DNA of 64,000 nt, taken from contig ONAB01000001.1 of NCBI GenBank assembly GCA_900315705.1, positions 62,001 through 126,000 on the forward strand. Direction: 5' to 3'. This DNA comes from an uncultured Bacteroidales bacterium (GTDB lineage: Bacteria > Bacteroidota > Bacteroidia > Bacteroidales > WCHB1-69). The position numbers and the translations under genes are program-made. The notes beneath the pieces were generated by a model that saw nothing but the letters and a program-made list of their open reading frames with translations, ran no database searches and was not told the origin of the DNA. Positions 1,352-18,474 of the stretch are shown here, in pieces. The number at the start of each line of letters is the position of its first letter. Within the stretch, counting starts at the first letter, position 1.

Positions 1352-3457
1352 ATGATTGCTGACATCTACATCATCAAACGAAACGGAAAGAGAGAGCCTT
1401 TTTCCGTGGACAAAATCCGCAACGCCATCTCCAAGGCCTTCATCTCCGTGGGCGGTTTTGCCTCTCAGGAGGCGATGACCAATATCCTGAGTCGCCTCAA
1501 CATCTATGACGGCATCGCCGTGGAGGAGATCCAGAACCAGGTGGAGCGTTCCCTGATGGCGGAACGTTACTACGAGGTGGCCAAGGCCTACATCCTCTAT
1601 CGCCAGAAGCATTATGAGGACCGTGAGGTGAAGGACAAGATGGAGTTCCTCATCAACTACTGCAACGCGCGCAACGCCGCCACGGGCAGCAAGTACGATG
1701 CCAACGCCAATGTGGAGCGCAAGAATATCGCCACACTTATCGGCGAACTGCCCAAGTCAAGCTTTATACGCCTCAACCGCCGTATGCTCTGCGACCGCAT
1801 CAAGGATGTCTATGGCAAGGAGTTGGCGGACAAGTACCTCTATTACCTCAACAACCATTTCATCTACAAGAATGATGAGACTAGCATCGCCAACTACTGT
1901 GCCAGCGTGACGATGTACCCCTGGCTGCTCAACGGCACCCAGAGCATCGGCGGCAACGCCTCACGCCCCACCAACCTCAAGTCGTTTTGCGGCGGCTTCG
2001 TCAATATGGTGTTTATGGTTTCCAGTATGCTCAGCGGTGCCTGCGCCACTCCCGAGTTCCTGATGTATATGAACTATTTCATCGAGCTCGAATACGGCCC
2101 CGACTATTACAAGGAAGCCGACAAGGTGGTGGACCTCTCCCTCAAGCAGCGTACCATCGACAAGGTTATCACCGACTGTTTCGAGCAGGTGGTCTATACC
2201 ATCAACCAGCCCTCCGGCGCCCGTAATTTCCAGTCAGTGTTCTGGAATATCGCATATTACGACAAGTTCTACTTCAAGAGCCTCTTCGCCAACTTCCGCT
2301 TCCCCGACGGCAGCGAGCCCCATTGGGATTCGCTCAACTGGCTGCAGAAGCGTTTTATGCGTTGGTTCAACAAAGAGCGTACCCGCGCCGTGCTCACCTT
2401 CCCGGTGGAAACGATGGCCCTGCTCTCCAAGGACGGCGACGTGCTGGACAAGGAGTATGGCGACTTCACGGCCGAGATGTATGCGGAAGGGCACTCCTTC
2501 TTCACCTATCTCAGCGACAATGCCGACTCTTTGAGTAGCTGCTGCCGCCTCCGCAACGAGATTCAGGACAATGGTTTCAGCTATACTCTCGGCGCCGGCG
2601 GTGTCTCCACGGGCTCCAAAAGTGTGCTCACCATCAACCTCAATCGCTGCATCCAGTATGCCCACCGTAACAACATCCCCTACCTCGAGTTTTTGGAGGA
2701 GATGGTGGACCTTACCCATAAGGTACAAATCTGCTACAACGAGAACCTCAAGTATCTGCTTGAAAAGGGAATGCTGCCGCTCTTCGACGCCGGTTACATT
2801 GCAATGTCGCGCCAATATCTGACCATCGGCATCAACGGTTTGGTGGAGGCTGCCGAATACCTCCATATCCCCATCACCGACAATCCTCAGTATCAGAATT
2901 TTGTAGAGGAGATTCTCGGTTTGATAGAGACCTACAACAAGCGCTATCGCACCAAGGACCTGCTTTTCAACTGCGAGATGATTCCGGCGGAAAACGTGGG
3001 TGTGAAGCACGCCAAGTGGGACCGCGAGGATGGCTATCAGGTGCCCCGCGACTGCTACAACAGCTACTTCTACATTGTGGAGGATCCCAATACCAATCCG
3101 TTGGACAAGTTCCGTCTGCACGGCCGCAAGTATATCACCCACCTTACCGGTGGTTCCGCCCTTCACCTCAATCTGGAAGAGCATCTGTCGCAAAGCCAAT
3201 ATCGCCAGTTGCTTCGCGTGGCGGCAGTTGAAGGTTGCAACTACTTCACCTTCAATATTCCCAACACCGTTTGCAACGATTGTGGTCACATCGACAAGCG
3301 TTATCTCAAGGAGTGTCCCGTCTGCCACAGCAAGAATGTGGACTACCTCACGCGCGTGATTGGCTATATGAAACGGGTGAGCAGTTTCTCCGAGGCACGT
3401 CAGGAAGAGGAACACCGTCGTTACTACGCCAATGCGACCCACGATGAAGTTCTATAA
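1352..3457 (+). CDS. nrdD: Anaerobic (class III) ribonucleoside-triphosphate reductase
   Basis: NrdD makes dNTPs from NTPs without oxygen, using a glycyl radical installed by NrdG. The 701-residue protein has an N-terminal ATP-cone (about residues 3-95, starting DIYIIKRNGKREPFSVDKI) for allosteric control, the barrel core with the FCGGFVNMV segment, a four-cysteine zinc site (C641, C644, C655, C658) and the glycyl-radical motif RVIGY with G671. All are intact. It is preceded by a cobalamin riboswitch and overlaps nrdG, so the pair is one transcription unit. Length and motifs fit a functional enzyme. The riboswitch suggests that the genome also has a B12-dependent class II enzyme; that is inference. 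Confidence 0.97.
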   Translation: MIADIYIIKRNGKREPFSVDKIRNAISKAFISVGGFASQEAMTNILSRLNIYDGIAVEEIQNQVERSLMAERYYEVAKAYILYRQKHYEDREVKDKMEFLINYCNARNAATGSKYDANANVERKNIATLIGELPKSSFIRLNRRMLCDRIKDVYGKELADKYLYYLNNHFIYKNDETSIANYCASVTMYPWLLNGTQSIGGNASRPTNLKSFCGGFVNMVFMVSSMLSGACATPEFLMYMNYFIELEYGPDYYKEADKVVDLSLKQRTIDKVITDCFEQVVYTINQPSGARNFQSVFWNIAYYDKFYFKSLFANFRFPDGSEPHWDSLNWLQKRFMRWFNKERTRAVLTFPVETMALLSKDGDVLDKEYGDFTAEMYAEGHSFFTYLSDNADSLSSCCRLRNEIQDNGFSYTLGAGGVSTGSKSVLTINLNRCIQYAHRNNIPYLEFLEEMVDLTHKVQICYNENLKYLLEKGMLPLFDAGYIAMSRQYLTIGINGLVEAAEYLHIPITDNPQYQNFVEEILGLIETYNKRYRTKDLLFNCEMIPAENVGVKHAKWDREDGYQVPRDCYNSYFYIVEDPNTNPLDKFRLHGRKYITHLTGGSALHLNLEEHLSQSQYRQLLRVAAVEGCNYFTFNIPNTVCNDCGHIDKRYLKECPVCHSKNVDYLTRVIGYMKRVSSFSEARQEEEHRRYYANATHDEVL

Positions 3458-3920
3458 TTACGATATTGTCTTTCAGGAAATTCCCGATGAGGTGACGCTG
3501 GCCATCAACATCACCCATTGTCCGAACCATTGTGTGGGCTGCCATAGTCCGCACTTATGGGAAGATATCGGGCACGAGTTGACCGAAGAGGTCATCGACA
3601 ACCTGACAGCCAAATACAAGAATCTCATCACGTGTGTCTGCCTGATGGGGGGCGACCGCCAATGGCCTGAGGTGAAGCGCTTGATGGGGCACGTGCGCCG
3701 TCATACCAAGCTCCATACGGCCTGGTACTCCGGGCGTGAGCAATTCCCCGACGCCGCCACCAACACGACATCTTCCTCTTTGTCTTTGTTCGATTATGTG
3801 AAATTGGGACCCTACCGCCCTGACTTGGGCGGCCTCAAGTCCAAAACTACCAACCAGCGGATGTATCGGGTGGACAAAGGTAAAATGGTGGATATCACTA
3901 ACCGTTTCTGGCCCCGTTAG
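3444..3920 (+). CDS. nrdG: Anaerobic ribonucleotide reductase activating protein
   Basis: NrdG is a radical-SAM enzyme that uses a [4Fe-4S] cluster and S-adenosylmethionine to generate the glycyl radical on NrdD. The cluster motif CPNHCVGC gives CX3CX2C at residues 26-33 of a 158-residue protein. I chose the ATG at 3444 (MKFYNYD), which overlaps nrdD by 14 bases; an ATG at 3432 would add four residues. The stop codon overlaps the stop of the convergent dipeptidase gene. MGGDRQWPEV takes the place of the usual GGEP-like motif. Confidence 0.96.
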   Translation: MKFYNYDIVFQEIPDEVTLAINITHCPNHCVGCHSPHLWEDIGHELTEEVIDNLTAKYKNLITCVCLMGGDRQWPEVKRLMGHVRRHTKLHTAWYSGREQFPDAATNTTSSSLSLFDYVKLGPYRPDLGGLKSKTTNQRMYRVDKGKMVDITNRFWPR

Positions 3921-3937
3921 AATCCGGTCCAGAAGCG
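3903..3937. terminator. Palindrome over the convergent nrdG/dipeptidase stop codons
   Basis: CGTTTCTGG (3903-3911) pairs with CCAGAAGCG (3929-3937), with one wobble. Both stop codons lie in the loop and overlap each other (TAG at 3918-3920 on plus, TAA at 3917-3919 on minus). There is no T run, so if it terminates transcription it is not a classical intrinsic terminator. Confidence 0.4.
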
Positions 3938-5515
3938 TTCCCACATACTGGCTTCCATCTCCTGCCAGGTCTGGCGCGTGGCACCGGCAAAGTCAGACGT
4001 GTATCGGTTGAGCAGAGCCTGCGCTTCTTCTTTCTTTCCATTGTTCAGCAATTCCTGAGTGCGTTTTTCCAAGGCGGGCAGTTCGTCAAATGCCTTGTCC
4101 TCGTACCGTTGGATATTGTCATAGAACATCTTTTTGACAAGGCCCCAGCGCACTTGGCCAAGTTTGTTGGCCTTGCGGTAGTGCCAAAGAGCCGCGTTCT
4201 CATTGTAGCGGAAATGGCCGCATATATCAAAGCCTGCGGGCATCTTGGAGGCACCGGAGAAGACAGGGATGCGCGGACTTTGGCCAGGGTTTTCAAGCGA
4301 GAACCAGCAGAGCGCCCCTATCTCGTCGGGCATCCACGCGCGGCATTGCGTGATGAATGAGTATGAGCACCACGACATTGCCACGCCGCGGTAGAAGGTC
4401 ACCGCGTCGGGTTTCAGCATATTGTACATAGCGCGCTCGCTGGCGTCCATCCAGGGGTTGGCGTTGGGGCACACCACCGTGTCGGTGACAATCTCCCCGT
4501 TTACTTTGCGCTTGCGCGGATAGAGCAGGTTCTGGGTCTGGTCCAGCTCAGGACACCCCTCGTAGTTGGCCCGAAACAGTTCCATCACCTTGCGCACATC
4601 GACCTTCTGGTCAGGCTTGATGGAGAAGGGCAGTTCCTCGGCATCGAGGGCGAGGTGCAATGACGGGGCCAGCTCGTTGAAGATGTACCACTCGCGTTCC
4701 TTGAAGTTCTTGCCGTTGCTATAGGAGGAGGGGAAGGCCTTGTACCACACAAAGTCGCCTTTGCCATCCCAGAGGCCGTACTTCTTGGCCACTTTTTCGA
4801 TATTGTCGGAGCAGAGGAAGTAGTCTTTGTTCTTGCGGTCGAGTTTGCCGATGCGGGGCACGTTGCAGCTCACGGCCACCTCGTCGTCGGGCACGCGCTG
4901 TGCGACCCAGATGCCGCCGAGCTTGTCGGGGCCCTCGCCGAGGATTTCCATCTGCCACACCTCCTTTTTGTCAGCGATGGTGATGCACTCACCGCCATCC
5001 CCATAGCCGTACTGGGCTACCAGCTCGCCGATGAGGCGGATGGCGTCACGGGCATTGTCGCAGCGTTGCAGTGCTATGCGTTCCAGCTCTTCAATGAGGA
5101 ACATCCCGTTGGGGTTCACCAGCGTGTCGGGGCCCGAGAAAGTGCTCTCGCCAATGGCCAGTTGCTTCTCGTTGAGGCAGGGATAGGCCGTGTTCATATA
5201 GGCGTAAGTGTGAGGCGCTTCGGGAATTTCACCCGCCAAGGTCATTCCTTCCATACTCTTGGGCGTCTCGGTGTGCATTGTGCCTTTATAGACCTTGTGC
5301 ATCGTGCCGGGCTTGTGGTCAGCGGCAGGCTCCATCGTCACCCAGGTGCGGTATTTGCTGTCGCAGGTGTGCGAGGTAATCACCGACCCGTCGGTAGTGG
5401 CCTTGCAGCCCACCATAATGGAGGTGCAGTTGGCCCCCACCAACTCGGTCTCCTGACTGAATAGGGGAGAAAAAAATATGCAAACAAGTGCGAACAGGAG
5501 GAATGCGTGTTTCAT
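3917..5515 (-). CDS. C69 family dipeptidase, secreted
   Basis: A 532-residue protein with a signal peptide (about residues 1-20, ending PLFSQ) followed by the Ntn-hydrolase core of peptidase family C69 (PepD type). The catalytic Cys is C30 in ANCTSIMVG, next to the family pattern TTDGSVITSHTCD. In this family the nucleophile is exposed by removal of the leader. Further conserved blocks are YGYGDGGECITIADKKEVWQ and the C-terminal SLENPGQSPRIPV segment. It probably cleaves dipeptides in the periplasm as part of amino-acid uptake. It stands alone, with its own promoter at 5569-5576, and converges on nrdG. Confidence 0.9.
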   Translation of the reverse strand: MKHAFLLFALVCIFFSPLFSQETELVGANCTSIMVGCKATTDGSVITSHTCDSKYRTWVTMEPAADHKPGTMHKVYKGTMHTETPKSMEGMTLAGEIPEAPHTYAYMNTAYPCLNEKQLAIGESTFSGPDTLVNPNGMFLIEELERIALQRCDNARDAIRLIGELVAQYGYGDGGECITIADKKEVWQMEILGEGPDKLGGIWVAQRVPDDEVAVSCNVPRIGKLDRKNKDYFLCSDNIEKVAKKYGLWDGKGDFVWYKAFPSSYSNGKNFKEREWYIFNELAPSLHLALDAEELPFSIKPDQKVDVRKVMELFRANYEGCPELDQTQNLLYPRKRKVNGEIVTDTVVCPNANPWMDASERAMYNMLKPDAVTFYRGVAMSWCSYSFITQCRAWMPDEIGALCWFSLENPGQSPRIPVFSGASKMPAGFDICGHFRYNENAALWHYRKANKLGQVRWGLVKKMFYDNIQRYEDKAFDELPALEKRTQELLNNGKKEEAQALLNRYTSDFAGATRQTWQEMEASMWERFWTGF

Positions 5516-7163: not shown

Positions 7164-8171
7164 TTAGAGATTCTCTATTTCATTAACGGAAAGTCCAGTG
7201 ATTTCGGTGATAAGATCGAAAGGAAGTCCGTTGCGCTTCATTTTGGCGGCCATTTCCAATGCCGCCTCTTTGCGTCCTTCTTTGCGTCCCTCTTTGCGTC
7301 CTTCTTTGCGTCCTTCTTTGCGTCCCTCTTTACGTCCTTCCTTGCGTCCTTTCTCAAGCCCCTTCTCAAGTCCCTCCTCAAGTCCCTTTTCCAGCCCTAT
7401 TTGATGACCCTCGGCCAATCCTTTCTCCAAGCCGATGGCACGTCCCTCGAGCATAGCCGTTTCCAATTGGTCCTCATAAATGGCAATATCCATAAAATGA
7501 CGGTCATACACCCTGCGTTCTTTGTCACTCATCATCATATAGATGAGTTTCTTCCGCGCCTCTTCAAGTCCGGGCACAATAGTGTCGTCCTTGATGTTGC
7601 CGTTCCCAAAATAGTCCATCCACTCCTCCAAAGGTGTTTCGGCCTTTTTATTGAACGAATTGACCCTTAAAATATAGTATTCGGGGAAAACATCGTTGAT
7701 GGGGCGCATCCCTAATATGTCGCGTTCGCGGTCGTTTACCTGCAAAATGTCGTGTTTGTTCACCCCGCGGAATACGGTCTCCCCGTGATAAATATAATCA
7801 TCTCCGGTGCCCATATCGAAATAGATGATGTTGATACTGTACACTTTCTTGATCTGCTCGTATTTCAAGCCCTTCTCGATGTGCTCCGTGACGGCCTTGG
7901 AAGCGCCGAAGAGTATTCGTTCCAAGTAGTGCATTTCACGGGCTTGTTGGATTTCCACGATGATGATTTCATCCCGGGTGTTGCGCGCCTTTATGTCCAC
8001 ACGGTTCGTTTTTCCCCGCTCGTTATCCTTGTTGCTTTCGCTTTCCAGAATTTCCACAATGGTGATTTTTTCACCCAGAAGCACCGTCAGGAATCCTTCC
8101 AATATGTCAAAATTGGCCTTGTCGCGGAGCATATGCTTGGCCGCCCAGTCGAATCTGATATACTTTTCCAT
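7164..8171 (-). CDS. Rpn family PD-(D/E)XK nuclease, copy 1
   Basis: A 335-residue member of the Rpn (recombination-promoting nuclease, formerly putative transposase) family. The N-terminal nuclease domain shows D59 in RVDIKAR and E73-x-Q75 in IVEIQQ, the metal and catalytic positions of the fold. The C-terminus is a charged helix built of four-residue units: GLEK/GLEE-type units, then seven exact GRKE units (residues 275-302), then AALEMAAKMK and ITGLSVNEIE. The start at 8171 is set by a promoter at 8200-8207 inside a longer frame. A run of three Met codons (7530-7538, residues 212-214) is a candidate internal start for a short C-terminal product. It is the paralogue of the gene at 17557. 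Confidence 0.88.
   Translation of the reverse strand: MEKYIRFDWAAKHMLRDKANFDILEGFLTVLLGEKITIVEILESESNKDNERGKTNRVDIKARNTRDEIIIVEIQQAREMHYLERILFGASKAVTEHIEKGLKYEQIKKVYSINIIYFDMGTGDDYIYHGETVFRGVNKHDILQVNDRERDILGMRPINDVFPEYYILRVNSFNKKAETPLEEWMDYFGNGNIKDDTIVPGLEEARKKLIYMMMSDKERRVYDRHFMDIAIYEDQLETAMLEGRAIGLEKGLAEGHQIGLEKGLEEGLEKGLEKGRKEGRKEGRKEGRKEGRKEGRKEGRKEAALEMAAKMKRNGLPFDLITEITGLSVNEIENL
7266..7349 (-). repeat. 12-bp tandem repeat encoding seven GRKE units
   Basis: Seven near-identical 12-bp units, in frame with the Rpn nuclease gene. Unit copies differ only by silent third-base changes. Adding or losing units keeps the frame, so slippage would change helix length without breaking the protein. 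Confidence 0.9.
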
Positions 8172-8199
8172 TGCTTTTTGATTTTGATTTTCAAGTCCG

Positions 8200-8207
8200 C
8201 AAAGATA
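8200..8207 (-). promoter_or_regulatory. Proximal promoter box of Rpn copy 1 (TATCTTTG)
   Basis: Lies 36 bases before the start codon, exactly the spacing found in Rpn copy 2. Confidence 0.75.
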
Positions 8208-8271
8208 CCCTTTTTTTTCTTTATTTATCATATTGTTAGATTTTTTTGTTTATGTATTTTTAAAACGGCGG

Positions 8272-8279
8272 CAAAAATA
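8272..8279 (-). promoter_or_regulatory. Distal promoter box of Rpn copy 1 (TATTTTTG)
   Basis: Lies 72 bases upstream of the proximal box. Copy 2 has the same pair of boxes with the same 72-base spacing. Confidence 0.55.
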
Positions 8280-8319
8280 CAAAAAAAATCTTTATTTTTT
8301 ATCGAAATCAAAATGATAA

Positions 8320-8359
8320 ATAAAAATAAAGTTAAATTAACGTGGATTTGTTAATTTAA
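8320..8359 (-). terminator. Likely terminator of the GtrA-like gene
   Basis: A perfect 11-bp inverted repeat, GTTAAATTAAC at 8330-8340 and its complement at 8349-8359, with an 8-base loop. On the minus strand it is followed by a T-rich stretch and lies just after the gtrA-like stop codon. Confidence 0.6.
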
Positions 8360-8367
8360 CAGAGGGG

Positions 8368-8868
8368 CTAAGCTCCGTGGAGTCGTATTATCAAAAATAT
8401 GATGAACTCGATGGCAATGATGCTGCACATCACCCACCAATGGGCAGGTTTTGTGTCGTGTCGGAAGGTGAAAATCTTGTTGCAGAAATAGTTCAAGAGG
8501 CCGACAGGTAAAGCCATCAACGCACTGGCCCAATAGTTATTCACCCCAACCTGCTCCAGCAATCCGATGCCAAAGATGTTAACAAAATAAGTGAGGGTGC
8601 AAACCATTATGAATTTGAATATCAGACGATTGTCCCCAACTTTGAAAACTAACTTCCCATAGGTTTTGAAATTAAACAACACGCTGATAATCGTGCCTAA
8701 AAATGCCGCGAGCACGAAAGGCTCTTTCAGCGGAGTGAACCCCAGCAAGAAACGCAGAAGGACGAAGACAATCCACCCGAATGCTGTGTTCAGCATTGCC
8801 ACCAGCACAAACCGTATGAATTGTGGCGTGAGAAATTTCCCTATGAGATTTTTGAGGTTGTAAGACAT
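8368..8868 (-). CDS. GtrA-like membrane protein
   Basis: A 166-residue protein with four predicted membrane segments and the GtrA/DPMS pattern: [16 protein letters not shown] at the N-terminus, [10 protein letters not shown] in the middle and [12 protein letters not shown] before the last segment. Family members help move or handle lipid-linked sugars for cell-surface polysaccharides. I chose MSYNLKN at 8868, because the promoter at 8884-8891 leaves only a short leader. It is divergent from rho and not adjacent to a GT2 partner here; a GtrB-like GT2 lies at 22674. Confidence 0.82.
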
Positions 8869-8883
8869 TTTTTTACGAGGGCG

Positions 8884-8891
8884 CAAAAATA
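8884..8891 (-). promoter_or_regulatory. Promoter -7 box of the GtrA-like gene
   Basis: TATTTTTG on the minus strand, 16 bases before the start codon, back to back with the rho promoter. Confidence 0.65.
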
Positions 8892-8904
8892 TGAAAAAAA
8901 AATG

Positions 8905-8912
8905 TATTTTTG
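8905..8912 (+). promoter_or_regulatory. Promoter -7 box of rho
   Basis: TATTTTTG, 102 bases before the ATG at 9014. The roughly 95-base leader could allow autoregulation by Rho, as known in other bacteria; that is inference only. Confidence 0.65.
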
Positions 8913-9013
8913 CCGCTCCATTTACAAACCGCGGGCAAGCACCTGTTTATCCCTTCTTCGGTGTTGCCTTTTTACCAATAAATAAAGATTATTGTATAAC
9001 AAATTCCCCCATA

Positions 9014-10813
9014 ATGTTTACAAGTGATAGTAATGAAAAGAAGCCAAAGCGGAAGAGAATAACCAAAAACAACGACATTCCAGTGGCAACTTCTAACCAA
9101 AACAAGAAAACTGTCAAAGTCAACATCCCGGAAAAAAGAATCGAAGACCTTTTCAAGACCTCCCAGGTTCCGGAGAAAGATATACCCCAATCCATTGAGA
9201 TTCAAGAGCACATTGAAGAACCCGTTTTGTTCGCCAATCCGCTCCCCTTGGACGAGAAGCCCAAGCAGACACGCAAGCGCAAGCCCAAGACCGAGGCAAC
9301 GCCCTCGACAGAAGTCCCTGTGCCGGAACCACCTGCCGACGTGGTGCCCGTGAAGCGCAAACGCGGCCGACCCAAAAAGAGCGAATCAGTAACCCCTAAC
9401 CGCGAAAACACGACAGTTGGACAGGAACCTGCTATCCCTATTTTGGATCCGGAAGTCTTGCCCAAGAAAATCAATTCTGACTATACTTTTGAGGAGAAAG
9501 GCGATACGTCCAAAGACGTTAAAGCTGAAGAACCCGAAACTGAATTGCGGCCACAGGATGAAAAACGCCAATTGCACCGCAAGCGTCCCAAGGGAGAGCA
9601 TTCGCAACCAGCCCCAGACCCCACCCCTGTCCCTGCCAAGAGTGAATTTGACACATTGTTGGAAGAGCAGACAGCACAATTGGCTGAATCCCAGTACGAA
9701 GGCACGGTGATGGCAGAGGGCGTGCTCGAAATCACCAGCGACAATTGTGGTTTCTTGCGCTCCTCCGACTATAACTACCTCACTTCGCCGGACGACATCT
9801 ACGTGTCGCTTTCCCAAATCAAGCTTTTCGGCTTGAAAAACGGGGACACGGTCTATGGCGCCATCCGTCCACCCAAGAGCGGCGAGAAATATTTCCCGCT
9901 TACCAAGATCGACAAGATAAACGGCTGCAATCCTGACGACATCCGTGACCGTATCCCGTTCGACTACCTTACCCCGATGTTCCCTGACGAGAAAATCAAC
10001 CTCACCGGGCATCCGGGCTGCAACCTGTCCACCCGCGTCATTGACCTTTTTGCCCCTATTGGCAAGGGCCAGCGCGGCCTTATCGTGGCCCAGCCCAAAA
10101 CCGGTAAGACTGTCTTGCTGAAGGATATCGCCAATGCCATTGCTGCCAATCACCCTGAAATATACCTCATCATCCTGCTCATTGACGAGCGTCCCGAGGA
10201 GGTTACCGATATGCAGCGCAGCGTCAATGCGGAGGTCATCTCCTCCACATTCGACGAGCCCGCCGAGCGTCACGTCAAGATTGCCAATATGGTGCTGGAG
10301 AAGGCCAAGCGTATGGTCGAGTGTGGCCACGACGTGTGCATCCTTCTCGACTCCATCACCCGTCTGGCGCGTGCCTTCAACACAATGGCGCCCGCTTCCG
10401 GCAAGGTGCTCTCCGGCGGTGTGGAGGCCAACGCCCTCCAAAAGCCCAAACGTTTCTTCGGCGCGGCCCGTAACGTGGAAAACGGCGGCTCCCTCACCAT
10501 CATCTCCACTGCCCTCATCGAAACCGGATCCAGAATGGACGAGGTTATCTTCGAGGAATTCAAGGGTACTGGCAATATGGAACTCCAACTCGACCGCAAA
10601 CTCTCCAACAAGCGCGTCTATCCCGCTGTCGATCTGATGGCCTCCAGCACGCGCCGCGATGACCTGCTGCAGAAGAAGGAAGTGCTCCAGAAAATGTGGA
10701 TCCTCCGCAACCACCTCGCCGATATGAACACCATAGAAGCGATGACCTTCCTCAAAGAGAAGATGGAACGCACGCGCAACAACGAGGAGTTCCTGGCCTC
10801 TATGAATGGATAG
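9014..10813 (+). CDS. rho: Transcription termination factor Rho, long N-terminal extension
   Basis: A 599-residue Rho, against about 420 in E. coli. The C-terminal RecA-like ATPase is complete: Walker A PKTGKT at 361-366, [13 protein letters not shown], the Q-loop region and [11 protein letters not shown]. It is preceded by the RNA-binding cold-shock-like domain ([15 protein letters not shown] and PDDIYVS). The first ~230 residues are charged, Pro/Lys/Glu-rich and low in predicted structure, with [11 protein letters not shown] resembling an AT-hook. I do not find the usual Rho_N helical domain (LKELKEIAK-like). The start at 9014 is used because the promoter at 8905 falls inside the longer frame. 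Long N-terminal insertions are known in Bacteroidota Rho. Confidence 0.95.
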
Positions 10814-10874
10814 CCCCCTGTGAATATGGGATTTTTTCGTGCCGAAAAACTGGTCGCGGTATTCTATAAAATCC

Positions 10875-10882
10875 TATCTTTG
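10875..10882 (+). promoter_or_regulatory. Promoter -7 box of the serine hydrolase gene
   Basis: TATCTTTG, 16 bases before the ATG at 10891, giving an almost leaderless message. Confidence 0.65.
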
Positions 10883-10890
10883 CAACTGCT

Positions 10891-12207
10891 ATGTTGAAAA
10901 GAATATCGATTATATTTTTTGTCTTCTTCCTGTGCATCAGCTTCTTGAAAGCCGACTGCTTTTTACGGAAAGATTCATCTGGCGGATTTCTCGTCCCCTT
11001 TTCCATCAAAAACCTGACCACGGCCATTCCCGACATCGGGAATGCCAACGACCGTGATGTGCTGATCGACTCGCTCACGCTCTTCGCCGACAATCTCGGC
11101 AAGCGGCTTAATGGCACCATTTTGATAGCACGCCACGACACTATTTTGGTAGAAAAGGCGTACGGATACCTCCATCTCTACCGCAGCCACGACGGCTACG
11201 GATGGATGCCGGCCTCGGAACTTGAGAAACGCCGTCTCCAGCCATCCAACGCGATGACCTCCAACAGCATCTTCGAATTGGCCTCCGTGTCGAAACAGTT
11301 CACCGCCGCCGCCATCCTCAAGCTCTGCAGCGAGGAAAGAATGAGCCTGTCAGACACCCTTGGGCAATATTTTCCCGGCATCCCTTACAAGGAGGTCACG
11401 GTGCGCCAGCTGCTCACCCATACTTCCGGCCTGCCCGAATATTTCAATTTCGAATACAAGATTTACGATACGGCCACCTTCATCACCAACGATGACTTGG
11501 TGCGCATCCTGGTCAAAACGAAACCCCAGCGGATGTTCTTGTCCGGACAAGGGTACAAATACTGCAACACCAACTACGCTTTGTTGGCCTCCATCGTATC
11601 CATAGTGTCCGGAGAGTCATTTGAACAATATGTGCGCGACCACCTTTGGAAACCGGCGGGGATGAAGAACACCTTTTTCTTCACGGAGTTGGTAGGACTC
11701 TATCCTGGCGGCGAGCAACCCGAATGCGCCGTCCGCAAAGGCCAGGACTATGTCAACGTGAAACCCCTCGAGGGGGTGACGACCTTGCCGCTCACGCGAG
11801 GGCATTGGAGAACCGGGAACTTGGCCCTCTACGACCGTCTCAACGGCATCCTTGGCGACAAGGGTGTCTTCACCAACGCCGAAGACCTCGTACGCTGGAC
11901 AAATGTCTATTTTATGGAATACCAGATTCTTACGAAAGACTGGATTGACGAGGCCACCCGCTGCCAGAACAAACTTCCCAACGGCACGGTTCCCCGCGAT
12001 ATGTACGGCTATGGCGTCCATCTCGAGGAGAGTCCCGAGCACGGGCTCATCGTCTATCACGGCGGCCTCTGGAACGGCTACCATAACCTCTGGGCCTACC
12101 GCCCGTCAGACGGATTGATCATTATCTTCCTCAGCAACCTTTATAACTCCTCCCATTCAGGACAGAGCAACGAGTTGCTGAATATATATGACAGGCAGTC
12201 CCTATAA
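10891..12207 (+). CDS. Secreted serine hydrolase, beta-lactamase class C fold
   Basis: A 438-residue protein with an N-terminal signal or anchor (residues 4-21, ending LKADC; C23 may be a lipid site but the lipobox is poor). The penicillin-binding-protein/class C fold shows SVSK (S132, K135) and the YxN motif Y224-C-N226. Near the C-terminus, VYHGGLWNGY supplies the HGG-type third motif. Family members are esterases, D-aminopeptidases or DD-peptidase relatives, so the substrate is open. The next gene follows after 27 bases on the same strand, and the polysaccharide genes continue from there, so they may be co-transcribed. Confidence 0.88.
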   Translation: MLKRISIIFFVFFLCISFLKADCFLRKDSSGGFLVPFSIKNLTTAIPDIGNANDRDVLIDSLTLFADNLGKRLNGTILIARHDTILVEKAYGYLHLYRSHDGYGWMPASELEKRRLQPSNAMTSNSIFELASVSKQFTAAAILKLCSEERMSLSDTLGQYFPGIPYKEVTVRQLLTHTSGLPEYFNFEYKIYDTATFITNDDLVRILVKTKPQRMFLSGQGYKYCNTNYALLASIVSIVSGESFEQYVRDHLWKPAGMKNTFFFTELVGLYPGGEQPECAVRKGQDYVNVKPLEGVTTLPLTRGHWRTGNLALYDRLNGILGDKGVFTNAEDLVRWTNVYFMEYQILTKDWIDEATRCQNKLPNGTVPRDMYGYGVHLEESPEHGLIVYHGGLWNGYHNLWAYRPSDGLIIIFLSNLYNSSHSGQSNELLNIYDRQSL

Positions 12208-12234
12208 CCATCGGAACCATAAGGACAACAAACT

Positions 12235-13074
12235 ATGATTGAACTGAATACAAACTACCACACACACAGTCTCTACTGCGACGGAAAAGAACCTCTTTCG
12301 GCATTCGTGACCGCAGCTGAGAAACTGCATTACACCCAATTGGGATTCTCCTCCCACGCCCCTGTCCCCTTTGAAAACGACTTTGGAATCAAGGAGGAGG
12401 AGATTGATACCTATTGTCAGGAAATTGACGAACTGCAACAACATACGCCCGTTACGCTGCTCAAGTCGCTGGAATGCGACTTCATCCCCGGACAGTCCAA
12501 GTCTTTCGATGCATTCCGCGAGGAGCATCACTTGGATTATATCATCGGTGGGGTGCACCTCGTGTTACCCCCTCACGGCGAAGGTCTCTGGTTTATCGAC
12601 GGTTCCAAGCGCGAGATTTACGACGAAGGTCTTGACCGTTTGTTCGGACACAATATCCGCCAGGCTGTCACCTGTTTCTGGGAGCAGACCTTCGAGATGA
12701 TTGAGACAGAGCATTTTGAGATTATCGCCCATTTTGACAAAATCAAGATGCACAACCAGCATCGTTTCTTCGAGGACGACGAGCCCTGGTTCCAAGTTCT
12801 GGCCGACAAAGCGCTGCAACTCATCAAGCAACACGACCTGATTATCGAGGTCAACACCCGCGGCCTTTACAAGAAGCGTTGCGATGCCTTCTATCCCTCC
12901 ACCACTCTGTTGCAAAAAGCCCGGAAGTTGGACATTCCCGTTATCATCAGCAGCGACGCGCACAAATCGGAGGACCTCGGCCAGTTCTGTCCAGAGGCCC
13001 GCGACGAGCTGATGCGCTGCGGCTTTGACCATCTTGCCACCTTCGACACGACTACCCGCCGTTTCCAATACTGA
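12235..13074 (+). CDS. PHP-domain phosphatase, histidinol-phosphatase (HisK-type)
   Basis: A 279-residue PHP-superfamily protein. The metal ligands begin with H9-T-H11 in NYHTHSLYCDG and continue through SSHAP, LECDF, GVHLV, IAHFDKIK and the terminal ISSDAHK. The whole length matches the monofunctional histidinol-phosphatase (HisJ/HisK) family, which removes phosphate from L-histidinol phosphate. It is not in a histidine operon: it sits between a serine hydrolase and polysaccharide genes. A different phosphoester substrate is therefore possible. Confidence 0.85.
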   Translation: MIELNTNYHTHSLYCDGKEPLSAFVTAAEKLHYTQLGFSSHAPVPFENDFGIKEEEIDTYCQEIDELQQHTPVTLLKSLECDFIPGQSKSFDAFREEHHLDYIIGGVHLVLPPHGEGLWFIDGSKREIYDEGLDRLFGHNIRQAVTCFWEQTFEMIETEHFEIIAHFDKIKMHNQHRFFEDDEPWFQVLADKALQLIKQHDLIIEVNTRGLYKKRCDAFYPSTTLLQKARKLDIPVIISSDAHKSEDLGQFCPEARDELMRCGFDHLATFDTTTRRFQY

Positions 13075-13094
13075 ACCCCCTAAAACACATCACG

Positions 13095-13982
13095 ATGAAC
13101 CTGCGCTCCACTCCCAATATCTGGTTCCGGTACCTGCTTACCACGCTCTCGCCCCGTTGGAACGTGCGTTTTCTCTATCGCCATTGCCATCACAAAAAGC
13201 TGAACCTTGACCATCCGCAAACGATGGACGAGAAGTTGCAGTGGCTGAAGATTCATTATTACGATCAGGATCTTGTGAAGCAATGCGCTGATAAGTACCG
13301 CGTGCGTGAGTATGTGGAGGCGTGCGGCCTTGGGCACATCCTTAACCCGTTGCTGGGAAAATACCATTCCGCCAGTGAGATACCCTGGGAAAAGCTGCCA
13401 GAGAAGTTCGTGCTGAAATGGAATTTCGGCTGTGGCGGTAATGTCATTTGCCCCGACAAAAGCCGGCTCGACATCCCTGCCGCCGTGCGCGACCTGAACC
13501 GTTTCGGCAAAATCAAGTTCCATCTCCTCGCCGCCGAGCCCCAGTACGATATTGATGAAAAACTCATCCTGTGCGAACAGTTCATAGAGACCGATGACGG
13601 GCACGCCCCGGTGGATTACAAGTTCTACTGTTTCAACGGGAAAGCCGAGTATGTGCTCTGTTGCTACGGGCGTGGTGAAAACGAGCGCCCTTCGTTCTAT
13701 TTCTTCAACCGCCAATGGGAACTGCAGCGGCTCAACAAACAGGGACTCGAGGCACCGGAAGGCTTTACGCTTCCCAAACCTGACGGCATCGACCAACTTT
13801 TCGACTATGCGGAAACGCTGTCGAAGCCTTTCCCCTTTGTGCGCGCCGATTTCTACCTCGAAAATGGCAAGCCCTACTTCGGCGAGCTGACTTTTACCCC
13901 GAGTGGCGGCTTCGACAACGGCCGGCTGCCCTCCACCGATTTGCTTTTTGGACAAATGATCACCCTGCCGGAAACACACTAA
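13095..13982 (+). CDS. TupA-like ATP-grasp protein of polysaccharide synthesis
   Basis: A 295-residue protein of the TupA-like ATP-grasp family, named after teichuronopeptide synthesis and common in surface-polysaccharide loci, where it is thought to add amino acids or similar groups. Visible family segments are MDEKLQWLKIHYYD, CADKYRVREYV, FVLKWNFGCGGNVIC (ATP-grasp loop), DYKFYCFNGKAEYVLCC and the terminal VRADFYLENGKPYFGELTFTP, which carries the metal-binding Asp/Glu. No signal peptide. It lies 21 bases before the next gene of the cluster. Confidence 0.85.
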   Translation: MNLRSTPNIWFRYLLTTLSPRWNVRFLYRHCHHKKLNLDHPQTMDEKLQWLKIHYYDQDLVKQCADKYRVREYVEACGLGHILNPLLGKYHSASEIPWEKLPEKFVLKWNFGCGGNVICPDKSRLDIPAAVRDLNRFGKIKFHLLAAEPQYDIDEKLILCEQFIETDDGHAPVDYKFYCFNGKAEYVLCCYGRGENERPSFYFFNRQWELQRLNKQGLEAPEGFTLPKPDGIDQLFDYAETLSKPFPFVRADFYLENGKPYFGELTFTPSGGFDNGRLPSTDLLFGQMITLPETH

Positions 13983-14003
13983 TACCCTATTCCTTTTGAC
14001 ACT

Positions 14004-16301
14004 ATGAAACAGACCATCGCCAAATACTTGCTCTTTCTTACCCTCACGCTGGTAGCGGCTTCCTATTTGCCCTGGATTTACCTCACCAAGGTCTATTATA
14101 TCCTTCGCTATGCGATTATGGGGAGTATGGCCCTATCCGTTATCCTCACCTTTTCGGTGGAAAAATATTTCTCAGCCCGTTTTATGCGGCTGTTTGCCCT
14201 TACCATAGTCATCGTTCTTGCCGAATTTGTCATCTTCCATTTCACAGGCCATCGGTTCCGGCCTTCCGACCTTACCCAATTGGTGATTGCTTTCCTTTGT
14301 GTGGGCATCGGAATCTCCTTGGACAGCGACTTGAAAACGTGGGCCAACATCTGCTATTTTTACACCTTGGGGCTCATCGTGATGGGTGTTCTCAACTGCT
14401 TCTATTGGGCTGGCGGCCTTTATATTCCGGAGTATTATATGTTCAACGAAGGCAAGAACCAGGTAGGCGGAATGCTGGCCATTGCGGGTATCGCTTGCCT
14501 CTTTTTCGGCATCAAGCTCAAGGAACAAAGGACCCACTTTCTGGTACTGTTCATCCTCACGATGCTGGTACTACTGCTTATCCGCGCCCGTTCCGACTTC
14601 TTTGCCCTGTTGGTCTGCGCCGCATTCATTACTATTAAGGACAGCAATTGGCGCATCGACCTGAAGACGGTCATCACGCTCCTCTGCTTCTGTCTGATTG
14701 GCTATATTCTCTACACAGCTTTCCTCAGTGAGGAGCTGCACACCTTTATGTTGGGCGGAAAATCCTCGCAGAACCTGGATGTGGTCACATCCAACAGGTG
14801 GGCCCGCGACAAGCAGGGGCTGGAATACATCTTCAATGACTCTGTTGTGGGTGAGCAGGAATCCTCTTCGGGCATTCTGCTCATACACAATTATATATTG
14901 CTCCGTCTGGTGCGTTATGGCATTTGGTCGTTCGCCTTGGTGGGCTTTTACCTCTACTTTGGCATCACCACCGTGGTGGCCCTGTTCCGTTCTCGCAAGA
15001 CCGACTTGCAGGATGTGGGCTATGTGGCCTGTGCTTTGCCGCTCATTGTCAGTTTTGTGGAGCCCAACTTCCCGTATGGTCCGGGGTCGGTGCAAATGAT
15101 GGCCTTCCTGCTGCTCGGTGTCACGTTGCGTAGCCGCCAGCAATGCGAGCGGCACGCCATTCTTGCCGACGACGGGCAACCTCACCAAGTGCTGCACATC
15201 TGCAATGACTTCCCCAACAGCACTGTGCACGCCGAACTGTACCGGCATTTGGACCGGGCCGGCGTGGAGCAGGTGGTCTATTCGCCCATCCGTGACCCGA
15301 AACTGGAGGGCGGGAATGCCTTTGAAGGAGCGCACACTCGCATCGTCTATTCCTGCATTCTGAGGCCTTTGCACCGTGTTTTCTTCAACCACAAGATAGA
15401 TGTCATTGTCAAGGACCTTGGCAAGAAGGTGGACCTTACGCACATTCGTTATGCACACGCCACCAACCTGTTCAGCGACGGGGCCGTGGCCTTGCGCCTC
15501 AAACAGCGTTATGGGATTCCCTATATCGTGGCGGTGCGCAACAGCGACGTCAACGCCTTTTTGCGGTATATGCCCCATCTGTGGTGGGTGCACCGCGCCG
15601 TCATCCGCGAGGCCGACCAGGTGATCTTCATTACCCCCGCTTTGCACCGTCGCCTGGAGAATCATTGGACCCTTTGTGGGATGAAATCGTGCCTGCAGCA
15701 GAAAAGCCAGATCATCCCCAATGGCGTCAACCCGTACTGGCTTGACCATCTGCAGGCTACGCCATCCGCCGCCGCGCCGGGCCGTCTCCTCTACGTGGGT
15801 CTTTTCGACGACAACAAGAATGTGCTGCGCCTGATGCAGGCGGTGTTGCAACTACAGCAGCAAATGCCCGACGTCCATCTCGACCTGGTTGGCGGCGGAG
15901 GCAACCGAGAGAGAGAGGTGCTGGACCTCGTGCAGCAGCATCCTGGCACTTTCCGGTATCTCGGCAAAGTGTATGACAAGGAGAAATTGCAACACATCTA
16001 CGCCGAGAACCGCGTCTTTGCGATGCCCTCGTTGCACGAAACCTTCGGACTGGTGTATGTGGAAGCCCTGTCGCAAGGACTCTCCCTGCTTTACACCAAA
16101 GGGGAGGGTATTGACGGACTTTTCGAAGAGAAGGTGGGGGAAGCCGTCACGCCCACCGACGTGAACGGAATTGCCGAGGCCCTGTGGCTATTGCTCACCC
16201 AACCGGAGCAGTATCAACGGCCCGCGACCTTTGCCCGCTTCAACTGGGAGGAGATTGCAGAAAAATATCAGAAAATTTATGACATCCCCTCGATATGTTA
16301 A
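14004..16301 (+). CDS. Fused O-antigen polymerase-like membrane domain and GT4 glycosyltransferase
   Basis: A single 765-residue frame with two parts. Residues 1 to about 375 form a multi-spanning membrane region (about 10-11 segments) with a large loop (about 240-290), as in Wzy/O-antigen ligase proteins. Residues 394-765 are a GT-B family 4 glycosyltransferase: VLHICNDFPNSTVHAELYRHL, IIPNGVN, GRLLYVGLF, the ExFGLVYVE block of the donor site, and GVGEAV. The joint is in frame, with no repeat or frameshift sign. It overlaps the next GT2 gene by 7 bases. Polymerase and transferase steps may thus be coupled at the membrane. The fusion order is unusual in my experience. Confidence 0.85.
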   Translation: MKQTIAKYLLFLTLTLVAASYLPWIYLTKVYYILRYAIMGSMALSVILTFSVEKYFSARFMRLFALTIVIVLAEFVIFHFTGHRFRPSDLTQLVIAFLCVGIGISLDSDLKTWANICYFYTLGLIVMGVLNCFYWAGGLYIPEYYMFNEGKNQVGGMLAIAGIACLFFGIKLKEQRTHFLVLFILTMLVLLLIRARSDFFALLVCAAFITIKDSNWRIDLKTVITLLCFCLIGYILYTAFLSEELHTFMLGGKSSQNLDVVTSNRWARDKQGLEYIFNDSVVGEQESSSGILLIHNYILLRLVRYGIWSFALVGFYLYFGITTVVALFRSRKTDLQDVGYVACALPLIVSFVEPNFPYGPGSVQMMAFLLLGVTLRSRQQCERHAILADDGQPHQVLHICNDFPNSTVHAELYRHLDRAGVEQVVYSPIRDPKLEGGNAFEGAHTRIVYSCILRPLHRVFFNHKIDVIVKDLGKKVDLTHIRYAHATNLFSDGAVALRLKQRYGIPYIVAVRNSDVNAFLRYMPHLWWVHRAVIREADQVIFITPALHRRLENHWTLCGMKSCLQQKSQIIPNGVNPYWLDHLQATPSAAAPGRLLYVGLFDDNKNVLRLMQAVLQLQQQMPDVHLDLVGGGGNREREVLDLVQQHPGTFRYLGKVYDKEKLQHIYAENRVFAMPSLHETFGLVYVEALSQGLSLLYTKGEGIDGLFEEKVGEAVTPTDVNGIAEALWLLLTQPEQYQRPATFARFNWEEIAEKYQKIYDIPSIC

Positions 16302-17296
16302 CCGTCATTTGTCCTATTTACAACGAAGAGCAATACATTGTGGAATGTATGGGGTCCATCCTGCGCCAGGACTATCCGAAGGATGAGTTGGAGGTCATTT
16401 TTGTGGACGGAATGAGCACGGATGGCACGCGTACATTGGTGGCCGATTATGCAGCAAAATACCCGTTCATCCATCTTTTGGACAATCCGAAGCGCATTGT
16501 GCCCACGGCCCTCAACACCGCCATACGTGTCGCCAAGGGCGACCTGGTGGCCCGTATCGACGCGCACGCGAAGTATCCCGACAACTATCTGAGCGTGTTG
16601 GCCAAGAAGTTACAGACGCTCGAGGCTGACAATGTGGGGGGCGTGTGCCGCACCCTGCCCGCCAAGGAGACTCCGCTGTGCCAGGCCATCGCCGCCGCCC
16701 TCAGCTCTCCCTTCGGGATGGGCAACTCCTATTTCCGCATCGGTGCTGACCGCGACCGGCAGGTGGATACAGTGCCTTTTGGTTTCTTCCACCGCTCACT
16801 GTTTGACCGCATCGGGATGTTCGATGAAGAACTTATCCGCAACCAGGATGACGAGTTCAACGGGCGCATCATCCGGGAAGGAGGGAAGATATTTCTGGTT
16901 CCCGAGGTGGTCATCGACTACTTCGCACGCGACACCATCGGGAAAGTGTCCAGAATGTTTTACCAGTATGGCTTATTCAAACCATTGGTTAACAGCAAAT
17001 TGGGGAAACCTGCCACGGTGCGGCAGTTTTTCCCGTTGGCGTTTGTGTTAGCTTTGATAGTGGGAGCAGGGCTCTGTTTTGTGCATCGGTTTTTCCGGTG
17101 GCTGTACATAGCGATGTTGGGATTATATCTTCTGCTGGCCCTTTGGTTCGGGAAGAAGTTGGCCAAGAATTGGCGCGTGCTCCTGTGGATGCCTATTGTC
17201 TTTTTTGTGGTGCACATCAGTTACGGATGGGGGTACTTGCGCGGGTTGTGCAAGCTTGTCGCCAAGCGCGGATTCCAGGCCCAAGCTAACCGGTAG
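16295..17296 (+). CDS. Family 2 glycosyltransferase, ExoA-like
   Basis: A 333-residue GT-A enzyme starting MLTVICPIYNEEQYI, with VDGMSTDGT and the DxD-like RIDAHAKYPDNY, followed by DTVPFGFFHRSLF and ELIRNQDDEFNGRI. This arrangement matches the succinoglycan-type ExoA subfamily, which adds a sugar to a lipid-linked saccharide. Three C-terminal membrane segments (about residues 245-315) anchor it. It is translationally coupled to the fused protein upstream by a 7-base overlap and ends the cluster. Confidence 0.88.
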   Translation: MLTVICPIYNEEQYIVECMGSILRQDYPKDELEVIFVDGMSTDGTRTLVADYAAKYPFIHLLDNPKRIVPTALNTAIRVAKGDLVARIDAHAKYPDNYLSVLAKKLQTLEADNVGGVCRTLPAKETPLCQAIAAALSSPFGMGNSYFRIGADRDRQVDTVPFGFFHRSLFDRIGMFDEELIRNQDDEFNGRIIREGGKIFLVPEVVIDYFARDTIGKVSRMFYQYGLFKPLVNSKLGKPATVRQFFPLAFVLALIVGAGLCFVHRFFRWLYIAMLGLYLLLALWFGKKLAKNWRVLLWMPIVFFVVHISYGWGYLRGLCKLVAKRGFQAQANR

Positions 17297-17448
17297 TGTA
17301 AGATACCTTATTATTACTTTAGTCACGATTATATGTTCGAGGTCAGCCTTCTAAACACAACTCGCTCCTTAATTGTGTTTACTTTTAACAATTAACACAT
17401 AATTTCATACTATTTAATATTTTAATAAATTAGCGTCTGATTTTTTTG

Positions 17449-17456
17449 TATTTTTG
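17449..17456 (+). promoter_or_regulatory. Distal promoter box of Rpn copy 2 (TATTTTTG)
   Basis: Part of a roughly 100-base upstream cassette shared with copy 1, including TTTTTTTGTATTTTTGCCGC. Confidence 0.55.
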
Positions 17457-17520
17457 CCGCCGGTTAAAAAAATTATAAATAAAAAAATCTGACGTTGTGA
17501 TGAAAAAAGAAAAAAAAGGG

Positions 17521-17528
17521 TATCTTTG
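17521..17528 (+). promoter_or_regulatory. Proximal promoter box of Rpn copy 2 (TATCTTTG)
   Basis: Lies 36 bases before the ATG and 72 bases after the distal box; both distances equal those in copy 1. Confidence 0.75.
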
Positions 17529-17556
17529 CGGACCCAAAAATCAAACCCGCAAAAAT

Positions 17557-18474
17557 ATGGAAAGCTACATCCGTTTCGACTGGGCCGCCAAGTATATGCT
17601 TCGTGACAAGGCCAATTTTGACATATTGGAAGGATTCCTCACGGTTGTCCTTGGGGAGCCCGTTACCGTAGTGGAAATACTGGAGAGCGAGAGCAATGCC
17701 GACCACGAACTGGGCAAGGTCAATCGTGTGGACATCAAGGCTCGCACCACGCGCAATGAGATTATACTGGTGGAGGTGCAGCAGACGCGCCAGGTGCACT
17801 ATTTGGAGCGAATGGTCTTCGGAGCATCCAAAGCGGTGGTCGAGCACGTGAAGAAGGGGGAGGAATATGAGACGGTCAAGAAGGTGTATAGCATTAACAT
17901 CGTCTATTTCGACCTGGGGGTGGGGGAGGACTATTTTTATCACGGTGAAACTGTCTTCAGTGGTGTCAACACGCACGACATTTTGAAGGTGAACAAGCAC
18001 GAGCGCGATCTTATCGGGATGGAGCCTTACAACAATATCTTTCCCGAGTACTATATTCTCAGAGTCAAGGCCTTCAACAAGAGGGTGGCCGAGAATCCGC
18101 TGGAGGAGTGGATGGACTACTTCCGCAACGCCCACATCAAGGATGGCACCACAGCACCGGGGCTTGCGGCGGCCCGGACGAAACTCATCTATATGATGAT
18201 GACAGAGAAGGAACGGCGCCAGTACGACCGGCATTTCGACGACCTCTTTTGTTATCAGGACGAGTTGTTGGCCGCCGTGCGCGAAGGGCGCGCTGAAGGC
18301 ATCGAGATGGGGCTGAAGGAGGGTCATCAAATAGGTTTGAAAGAGGGCCGTGAGGAAGGGAAGAAAACTGCCGCTACGGAAATCGCCGCCAAAATGAAGA
18401 ACAACGGTATCCCCCACACCCTAATTACAGAATTGACAGGACTTTCTGTGAAAGAAATAGAAAAACTCAACTGA
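17557..18474 (+). CDS. Rpn family PD-(D/E)XK nuclease, copy 2
   Basis: A 305-residue paralogue of the gene at 7164-8171, with the nuclease residues D59 (RVDIKAR) and E73-x-Q75 (LVEVQQ) at the same positions and near-collinear sequence through most of its length. The C-terminal helix has only degenerate units (GRAEGIEMGLKEGHQIGLKE) and no GRKE expansion; that accounts for the 30-residue difference. The upstream promoter pair is conserved too, so gene and control region were duplicated together. MMM codons at 18193 again offer a possible internal start. A clear terminator overlaps its stop codon. Confidence 0.88.
   Translation: MESYIRFDWAAKYMLRDKANFDILEGFLTVVLGEPVTVVEILESESNADHELGKVNRVDIKARTTRNEIILVEVQQTRQVHYLERMVFGASKAVVEHVKKGEEYETVKKVYSINIVYFDLGVGEDYFYHGETVFSGVNTHDILKVNKHERDLIGMEPYNNIFPEYYILRVKAFNKRVAENPLEEWMDYFRNAHIKDGTTAPGLAAARTKLIYMMMTEKERRQYDRHFDDLFCYQDELLAAVREGRAEGIEMGLKEGHQIGLKEGREEGKKTAATEIAAKMKNNGIPHTLITELTGLSVKEIEKLN

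Follow-up and report, generated by a model that had tools for sequence, protein, structure and literature searches.

Two genes in a 64,000-nucleotide stretch of DNA from an uncultured Bacteroidales bacterium (GenBank assembly GCA_900315705.1, contig ONAB01000001.1, positions 62,001 to 126,000; hereafter "the window") encode sister nucleases of the Rpn family. The two proteins, which we call c1 and c2, share their predicted catalytic residues and differ in the number of four-residue repeat units that precede a short C-terminal tail. We propose that the repeats and the tail together form a module that pairs nuclease subunits, and that changes in this module would keep copies within one genome apart; taken as a whole, we hold this explanation to be moderately probable. 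An earlier note on this DNA had already recognized the pair, with correct coordinates and reading frames (Table 1), and had suggested in addition that each gene contains a second, internally started product.

Both proteins score well above the curated cut-offs of TIGR01784 (89.1 bits for c1 and 88.5 for c2; cut-off 52.1) and PF12784 (85.3 and 89 bits; cut-off 27.4), confirming the assignment to the Rpn family made in the earlier note. Before the repeats the two are 72-74% identical (72% across 241 aligned codons). The PD-(D/E)XK residues that had been singled out, D59, E73 and Q75, are present in c1, and c2 aligns with the same residues. More broadly, D8, D59, E73, Q75 and R85 of c1 correspond to D11, D63, E82, Q84 and R94 of Escherichia coli RpnA, a correspondence of motif and spacing rather than a significant alignment to RpnA, and the same residues occur in c2. 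In RpnA, these five residues are reported to be required for RpnA-promoted recombination (Kingston et al, 2017; PMC5350276). The N-terminal ~210 residues of c1 and c2 would hold a nuclease domain that, judging by its intact residues, is predicted to be active.

Relatives were collected in a scan of genome contigs, in which at least 543 were confirmed and the best 80 kept; among the matches listed they belong to Bacteroidota, going by record titles, in agreement with the Bacteroidota host proposed earlier for the pair. Together with one gene from a viral collection and ten from the window's own and related genomes (c1 and c2 included), this gave 91 extracted genes. Four were dropped (two running off contigs, one fragment and one duplicate), leaving 87 family genes for all counts, with each gene start assigned as the nearest ATG preceding the conserved N-terminal motif. 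The positions of c1 D8, D59, E73, Q75 and R85 are conserved in 87, 87, 86, 86 and 84 of these 87 genes, respectively. A phylogenetic tree places c1 and c2 as sisters (100/100, with the bootstrap not settled) on a branch of their own, the c2 branch being the longer (0.44 versus 0.14 for c1). They are the only copies found in their own 3.0-Mb, 47-contig genome, and at least one Rpn match is present in 29 of the 41 genomes of the genus, with the window's genome counted. Matches in mobile DNA comprised three phage records for c1, none covering 80% of it, and 610 plasmid records for c2, 146 of which cover at least 80% of c2, all at less than 60% identity. Separately, one viral-collection contig (L184) carries an Rpn gene of the c1/c2 family at 1791-2675, at 41% identity. 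Matches to FliH and Yae1 fell below cut-offs and centred on the repeat region, and PDB matches to designed pentatricopeptide proteins were set aside as short-helix similarity. These results support a real pair of genes from a known family, whose Rpn identity and repeat variability are already published; repeat variation across species, including Bacteroides fragilis, was reported by Zhong et al (2023; PMC10327210).

DNA homology between the two loci begins 116 bp upstream of the genes and ends a few bases from the stop codon (~73% identical DNA), so that the Rpn unit consists of promoter plus gene. The shared upstream regions contain TANNTTTG boxes at matching positions (Table 1), which we take to be Bacteroidota-type promoter boxes, and a TATCTTTG box lies at -36 of both genes. 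Longer N-termini, from open reading frames of 355 and 325 amino acids, were set aside since this common box would fall inside them; because the longer frames begin upstream of the box, we infer that the shorter starts, as used in the earlier note, are the better ones. Across the family, 71 of 86 genes have a promoter box in the 150 nt before the start, compared to 6.0 in base shuffles, and these boxes are clustered 30-39 nt upstream of the start. The true starts also served as positive controls for initiation signals, showing an excess of A/T-ending codons (t = 4.5; A-ending, t = 8.6) and a loss of RNA structure (t = 8.8). Both upstream regions additionally contain facing AGATTTTTTT-like and AAAAAAATCT stretches.

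The repeat consists of consecutive G-x-x-x units, of which c1 has 15 and c2 seven. The earlier note attributed the length difference between the proteins to seven GRKE units: the net difference of 30 residues stands, while the difference in units is eight (a 32-residue alignment gap, with two single residues elsewhere). Its description of the repeat as variable holds across the family, in which unit number ranges from 1 to 20. Among 19 pairs with N-terminal parts at least 90% identical, which share members and are therefore not independent, and which were drawn from relatives, unit number differs in 17, and in 16 the difference in length is divisible by four residues. Six GRKE units of c1 differ from one another at 23% of codons on average. 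Between c1 and c2, 103 of 209 degenerate codons that encode identical residues differ, so the array in c1 probably arose after the two genes had split. A preference for GAA at the first repeat glutamate was set aside, as it also occurs before glycine elsewhere in the repeats. In one further Rpn gene (L162, near 3692-4030), the reading frame is disrupted at the repeats and the tail lies in a different one.

Comparison of gene copies within single genomes points to a second source of variation, beside the repeats. We picked eleven same-genome pairs by eye, using accession prefixes; c1/c2 and L011a/b are among them. Every one of the eleven shows lower identity in the tail than in the N-terminal part, as do all 11 same-genome pairs of a second subfamily with N-terminal identity above 0.7. 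The pairs L136/L150 and L011a/b show zero synonymous differences over 247 N-terminal codons, and their tails have 41% and 66% DNA identity, respectively. Identity stops within the repeats in L136/L150, which derive from a metagenome assembly, and at the end of a repeat-like stretch in L011. On hand-rounded counts, the tail has a higher synonymous rate than the body in L136/L150 (p = 9e-17), L153/L165 (p = 2e-7) and L011 (p = 2e-12), and 7 of the 12 pairs tested, out of 16 compared, gave p < 0.05 uncorrected. Overall, these data point to tail swapping rather than fast substitution alone, with three pairs indicating exchange at or beside the repeats. A narrow literature search met no prior account of tail exchange in Rpn proteins. 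As a separate observation, locus L173 contains two adjoining Rpn genes of different subfamilies (1264-2103 and 2971-3840; N-terminal parts 22% identical) whose last 38 bp are 94.7% identical.

A similar tail is found on another type of protein in this genus. In several of its genomes, a model of the tail matches reading frames ~166-169 residues long, and all four such proteins scanned lie above the cut-off of PF01934, the HepT family (71.7-79.1 bits; cut-off 23.5). The tail of the L308 protein matches the end of TIGR01784 (E = 0.00015); that of L316 gives no match to the end of TIGR01784 at E up to 1. Shorter pieces carrying the same kind of tail occur at L301, L311 and L313. In L308 an open reading frame ends just past the HepT start, and by our own reading this frame encodes a putative MntA partner.

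On the explanation that we favor, c1 and c2 are sister Rpn DNA endonucleases, each forming a single-gene unit with its own promoter. The G-x-x-x repeats would lengthen a helix that pairs two subunits, as in the solved tail of E. coli RpnA, by about one turn per unit, and unit number together with the sequence of the short tail would set the possible partners, as suggested by the E. coli work. In its favor, residues 296-332 of c1 align in register, though weakly, with that solved tail (7TH0). Copies in the same genome would be kept apart through gain or loss of whole units and through tail exchange at or beside the repeats, leaving the nuclease domain unchanged; both processes are seen in relatives, and c1 and c2 themselves differ in unit number only. 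The tail would then be a portable pairing module: sequence shows that in this genus it also stands as an independent gene and ends some HepT toxins, where its function as such a module is predicted. Nuclease activity is probably restrained through the tail module, and in c1 and c2 probably not by a product started at the internal methionines. By descent from the same family, a role in defence is plausible. A bolder version of this idea makes the tail an addressing module that extends beyond Rpn, being swapped at repeats, encoded as its own gene and carried on HepT, such that one set of tails controls unrelated nuclease toxins in one genus, with Rpn cutting perhaps driving both the exchanges and larger events, among them the inversion bounded by the two genes; we offer this version tentatively, as rather improbable.

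Several observations weigh against the pairing-module explanation. The tails of c1 and c2 are 71% identical, compared to 72-74% for the N-terminal parts, and because there is no excess of tail divergence this pair does not show tail exchange. The synonymous test is not significant in five of the 12 pairs, and the tails are short and difficult to align. The likeness of Rpn and HepT tails could be convergent, since the tail resembles a general helix-turn-helix-like end. The match of c1 to 7TH0, at E = 1.1, is not significant alone.

If the tail acts as a separate product, it might be made from a site other than the proposed start: from another internal start, for example alignment column 230, or from separate tail genes acting in trans. 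We consider this unlikely. Column 230 is the methionine of IM[VI]QND, 12 residues before the repeats, and is an ATG in 60 of the 87 genes. In a start-context model trained on true starts it ranks third of 231 columns by raw context, 35 of its 60 ATGs exceed the 10th percentile of true starts (2.3), and a modest excess of A/T-ending codons occurs just after it (codons 234-240, t = 3.7), which we set aside as a start signal as it comes without folding support. Against this, column 230 does not rise above synonymous shuffles at the codon level (t = -0.4) and has slightly more RNA structure than shuffles (t = -2.7), a Shine-Dalgarno (SD)-like site is found in 1 of 60 genes, and the column is not methionine in either c1 or c2, where other candidates score low (c1 M227, -4.0; c1 M240, -2.8; c2 GTG241, -13.9).

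Separate tail genes fare somewhat better elsewhere in the genus. Genome G018 contains a stand-alone repeat-plus-tail gene at locus L073 (Table 1), with its own TATCTTTG promoter box ending 6 nt ahead of the ATG, and no N-terminal Rpn part was found in its 3.5-kb locus. It is 79%, 80% and 72% identical to the tails of three other G018 Rpn genes and aligns with the ends of both TIGR01784 (E = 1.8e-9) and the RpnA model (E = 4.1e-5). Because such a gene exists in the same genus, the tail can apparently be made on its own. L073 fits a separate antitoxin-like product, and it suggests that such products may exist in the genus, lending some support there to a separately acting tail. It is, however, the sole clear stand-alone tail gene seen, and it belongs to a subfamily other than that of c1 and c2. 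The flanking sequence examined at 81 family loci contains no separate tail gene except the broken gene of L162 and a contig-end piece (L180), and in the window's own genome the tail model gave, among the matches listed, nothing better than E = 0.05 besides c1 and c2. C-terminal Rpn pieces are numerous in the genus; most of those examined (14 and 17 loci, selected for short frames and a subset of the matches) lie at contig ends, are split or truncated, or have no repeats. Eleven such pieces in same-genus genomes (L035, L054, L057, L061, L067, L068, L071 and L082-L085) lie at contig ends, as if near-identical N-terminal parts had halted assembly.

The surroundings of c1 and c2 raise a different alternative. 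Scanned neighbors encode a DUF1846 protein, a C69 peptidase, a GtrA protein and a glycosyltransferase, and we read the gene at 8891-10813 as Rho. A PADLOC scan of ten proteins, c1 and c2 included, identified no convincing defence protein; a match of c2 to "putative invertase" (E = 1.1e-4, residues 222-285) and one of the 8891-10810 protein to mad8 (E = 2.9e-5) were rejected as weak. The two Rpn genes are mutually inverted in orientation, and in two of the three closest species the block between them has the opposite orientation. In one of these, G028, the segments matching the GtrA gene and the large gene that ends at 18536 in the window are ~50 bp apart, with the genes facing each other; in G015 this pair is split by an IS110 gene, and in G004 a comparable convergent pair is found, at 48% identity. 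G022 has a different neighbor beside GtrA. As the ends of the GtrA and large genes that adjoin in relatives sit at c1 and c2 here, we conclude that the 8.39-17.15 kb block has been inverted. In G015, another part of the right flank has retained its orientation. The left side requires more than a single inversion: a second C69 gene follows the DUF1846 gene in G015, G022 and G028, on other contigs, and in G015 and G022 the glycosyltransferase gene is adjacent to an ATPase gene, which the window's genome has on a different contig. The three relatives lack any Rpn match. The IS110-family transposase gene of G015 (L251, 4237-5247) lies at the junction that is broken by the inversion in the window's genome.

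One could accordingly see c1 and c2 as mobile passengers, whose nuclease promotes RecA-independent recombination, whose repeats and tails are by-products, and which as a pair either mediated the inversion or mark it. The presence of c1 and c2 at both ends of a block inverted relative to G015 and G028 is consistent with such a role, as is the increase in RecA-independent recombination upon overexpression of E. coli Rpn proteins (Kingston et al, 2017; PMC5350276). This account nonetheless appears improbable to us. It draws on a single locus, accessory genes often lie at the ends of rearrangements, and the left side is unexplained by one inversion. At ~73% DNA identity, ordinary homologous recombination between c1 and c2 is unlikely, and Zhong et al (PMC10327210) argue against transposition. 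A causal link between the Rpn genes and the inversion is possible, but goes beyond what a single locus can show.

The proposal of the earlier note, a gene-within-gene toxin-antitoxin pair as in E. coli, requires a C-terminal product that starts at three consecutive methionine codons (MMM) and blocks the nuclease. These codons were placed correctly, at residues 212-214 of c1 and 213-215 of c2. In addition to the family name and repeat design shared with E. coli Rpn, conservation appears to favor the proposal: the last methionine is kept in 82 of the 87 genes (the exceptions being the leucine codons CTG, CTG, CTA and TTG and the cysteine codon TGT), with the first and second present in 27 and 11. 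By context score, c1 M214 (1.9) and c2 M215 (4.9) are also the most start-like of the scored in-frame internal ATGs of their genes, the c2 score exceeding the 10th percentile of true starts, and c1 and c2 share an identical 23-nt run across MMM. RpnS, the product of internal starts, was reported for all five E. coli genes and for a Clostridioides difficile gene expressed in E. coli (Zhong et al; PMC10327210).

We found none of the signals of true starts at MMM. A/T-ending codons are not in excess before or after M214 (t = -0.1 and 0.1, compared to 4.5 at true starts), and RNA structure is not lost (t = -0.3 at codon 212 and -0.9 at codon 215, compared to 8.8). No SD-like site precedes the conserved methionine in any of the 82 genes, and an internal promoter box occurs within codons 100-245 in 3 of 87 genes versus 4.0 expected from synonymous shuffles; c2 has one TANNTTTG box at nucleotide 775, within the repeats and downstream of MMM. 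The upstream context of the conserved methionine ranks 42nd of 231 columns and is no better than synonymous shuffles (t = 0.2), exceeding the 10th percentile of true starts in only 10 of 82 genes, and the true starts of c1 (13.3) and c2 (11.3) score above M214 and M215. The 23-nt run is the second longest identical run, and synonymous identity between c1 and c2 is 9 of 17 at codons 200-225 versus 106 of 209 overall. The spacing also differs: MMM lies 28-30 residues ahead of the repeats, whereas the repeats begin 8-20 residues after the RpnS methionine in the published cases (PMC10327210), and no ATG at 8-20 residues before the repeats is common to c1 and c2 (c1 alone has M227). An internal start at MMM is therefore not supported and claims more than the sequence allows, and while a missing signature is no proof against a product, we regard the proposed gene-within-gene arrangement as distinctly unlikely.

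Table 1. Coordinates of the Rpn genes, their parts and related features. Positions refer to the window unless a locus (L) is given.
Feature	Position	Strand	Description
c1	8171..7164	minus	Rpn-family PD-(D/E)XK nuclease, 335 amino acids
c2	17557..18474	plus	Rpn-family PD-(D/E)XK nuclease, 305 amino acids
c1 upstream region	8172..8287	minus	116 bp homologous to c2 upstream; TANNTTTG boxes at -108 and -36
c2 upstream region	17441..17556	plus	116 bp homologous to c1 upstream; TANNTTTG boxes at -108 and -36
c1 whole G-x-x-x run	7266..7445	minus	residues 243-302
c2 whole G-x-x-x run	18286..18369	plus	residues 244-271
c1 12-bp tandem array	7267..7351	minus	encodes GRKE units; found independently, 7.1 copies, 90% matches
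c1 MMM	7538..7530	minus	internal start unsupported
c2 MMM	18193..18201	plus	internal start unsupported
Block between c1 and c2	8392..17151		GtrA gene to glycosyltransferase gene; inverted versus G015 and G028
L073 open reading frame	L073 1724-1903		genome G018, same genus; stand-alone 60-amino-acid repeat-plus-tail gene beginning at the repeats
HepT-like gene with Rpn-like tail	L308 1386-1883
HepT-like gene with Rpn-like tail	L316 1188-1694
HepT-like gene with Rpn-like tail	L307 1804-2304	minus
HepT-like gene with Rpn-like tail	L317 964-1461
HepT-like gene with Rpn-like tail	L309

Gut Bacteroidota are rich in Rpn genes, and the internal-antitoxin model comes so far from E. coli and one C. difficile gene (PMC10327210). 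Our analysis suggests that the internal start is not carried over simply at MMM, whereas diversification of repeat number and tail is. The stand-alone tail gene and the HepT tails provide a direct route to asking whether the tail is a general control module.

Comparison with known systems places c1 and c2 as follows. HepT of the MntA-HepT system (PF01934) can have, in this genus, a similar C-terminal tail, but its catalytic domain is unrelated and its tails are seen without repeats. Among the closest known systems are also E. coli RpnA-RpnE and the plasmid-borne RpnP2, for which RpnL and RpnS products are described (PMC10327210) and which share with c1 and c2 the nuclease, the variable four-residue repeat and the short helical tail. 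The tails of c1 and c2 may be related to RpnA-S: the end of c1 matches that of NF007418 (E = 0.0018), a model that c2 matches at E = 0.02. E. coli members are described under PF04754 (PMC5350276), and c1 and c2 fall under PF12784. In RpnA the internal start lies behind AAGGAG, 9 residues before an EG aligned with the repeat and 49 residues from the end, whereas c1 and c2 have neither an ATG nor an AAGGAG-like site at this position. The two genes look like Rpn nucleases, but placing them in the gene-within-gene toxin-antitoxin class would go beyond the evidence. With the TIGR01784/PF12784 Rpn nucleases of Bacteroidota, c1 and c2 share domain, catalytic residues, repeats and tail, and show no essential difference from them.

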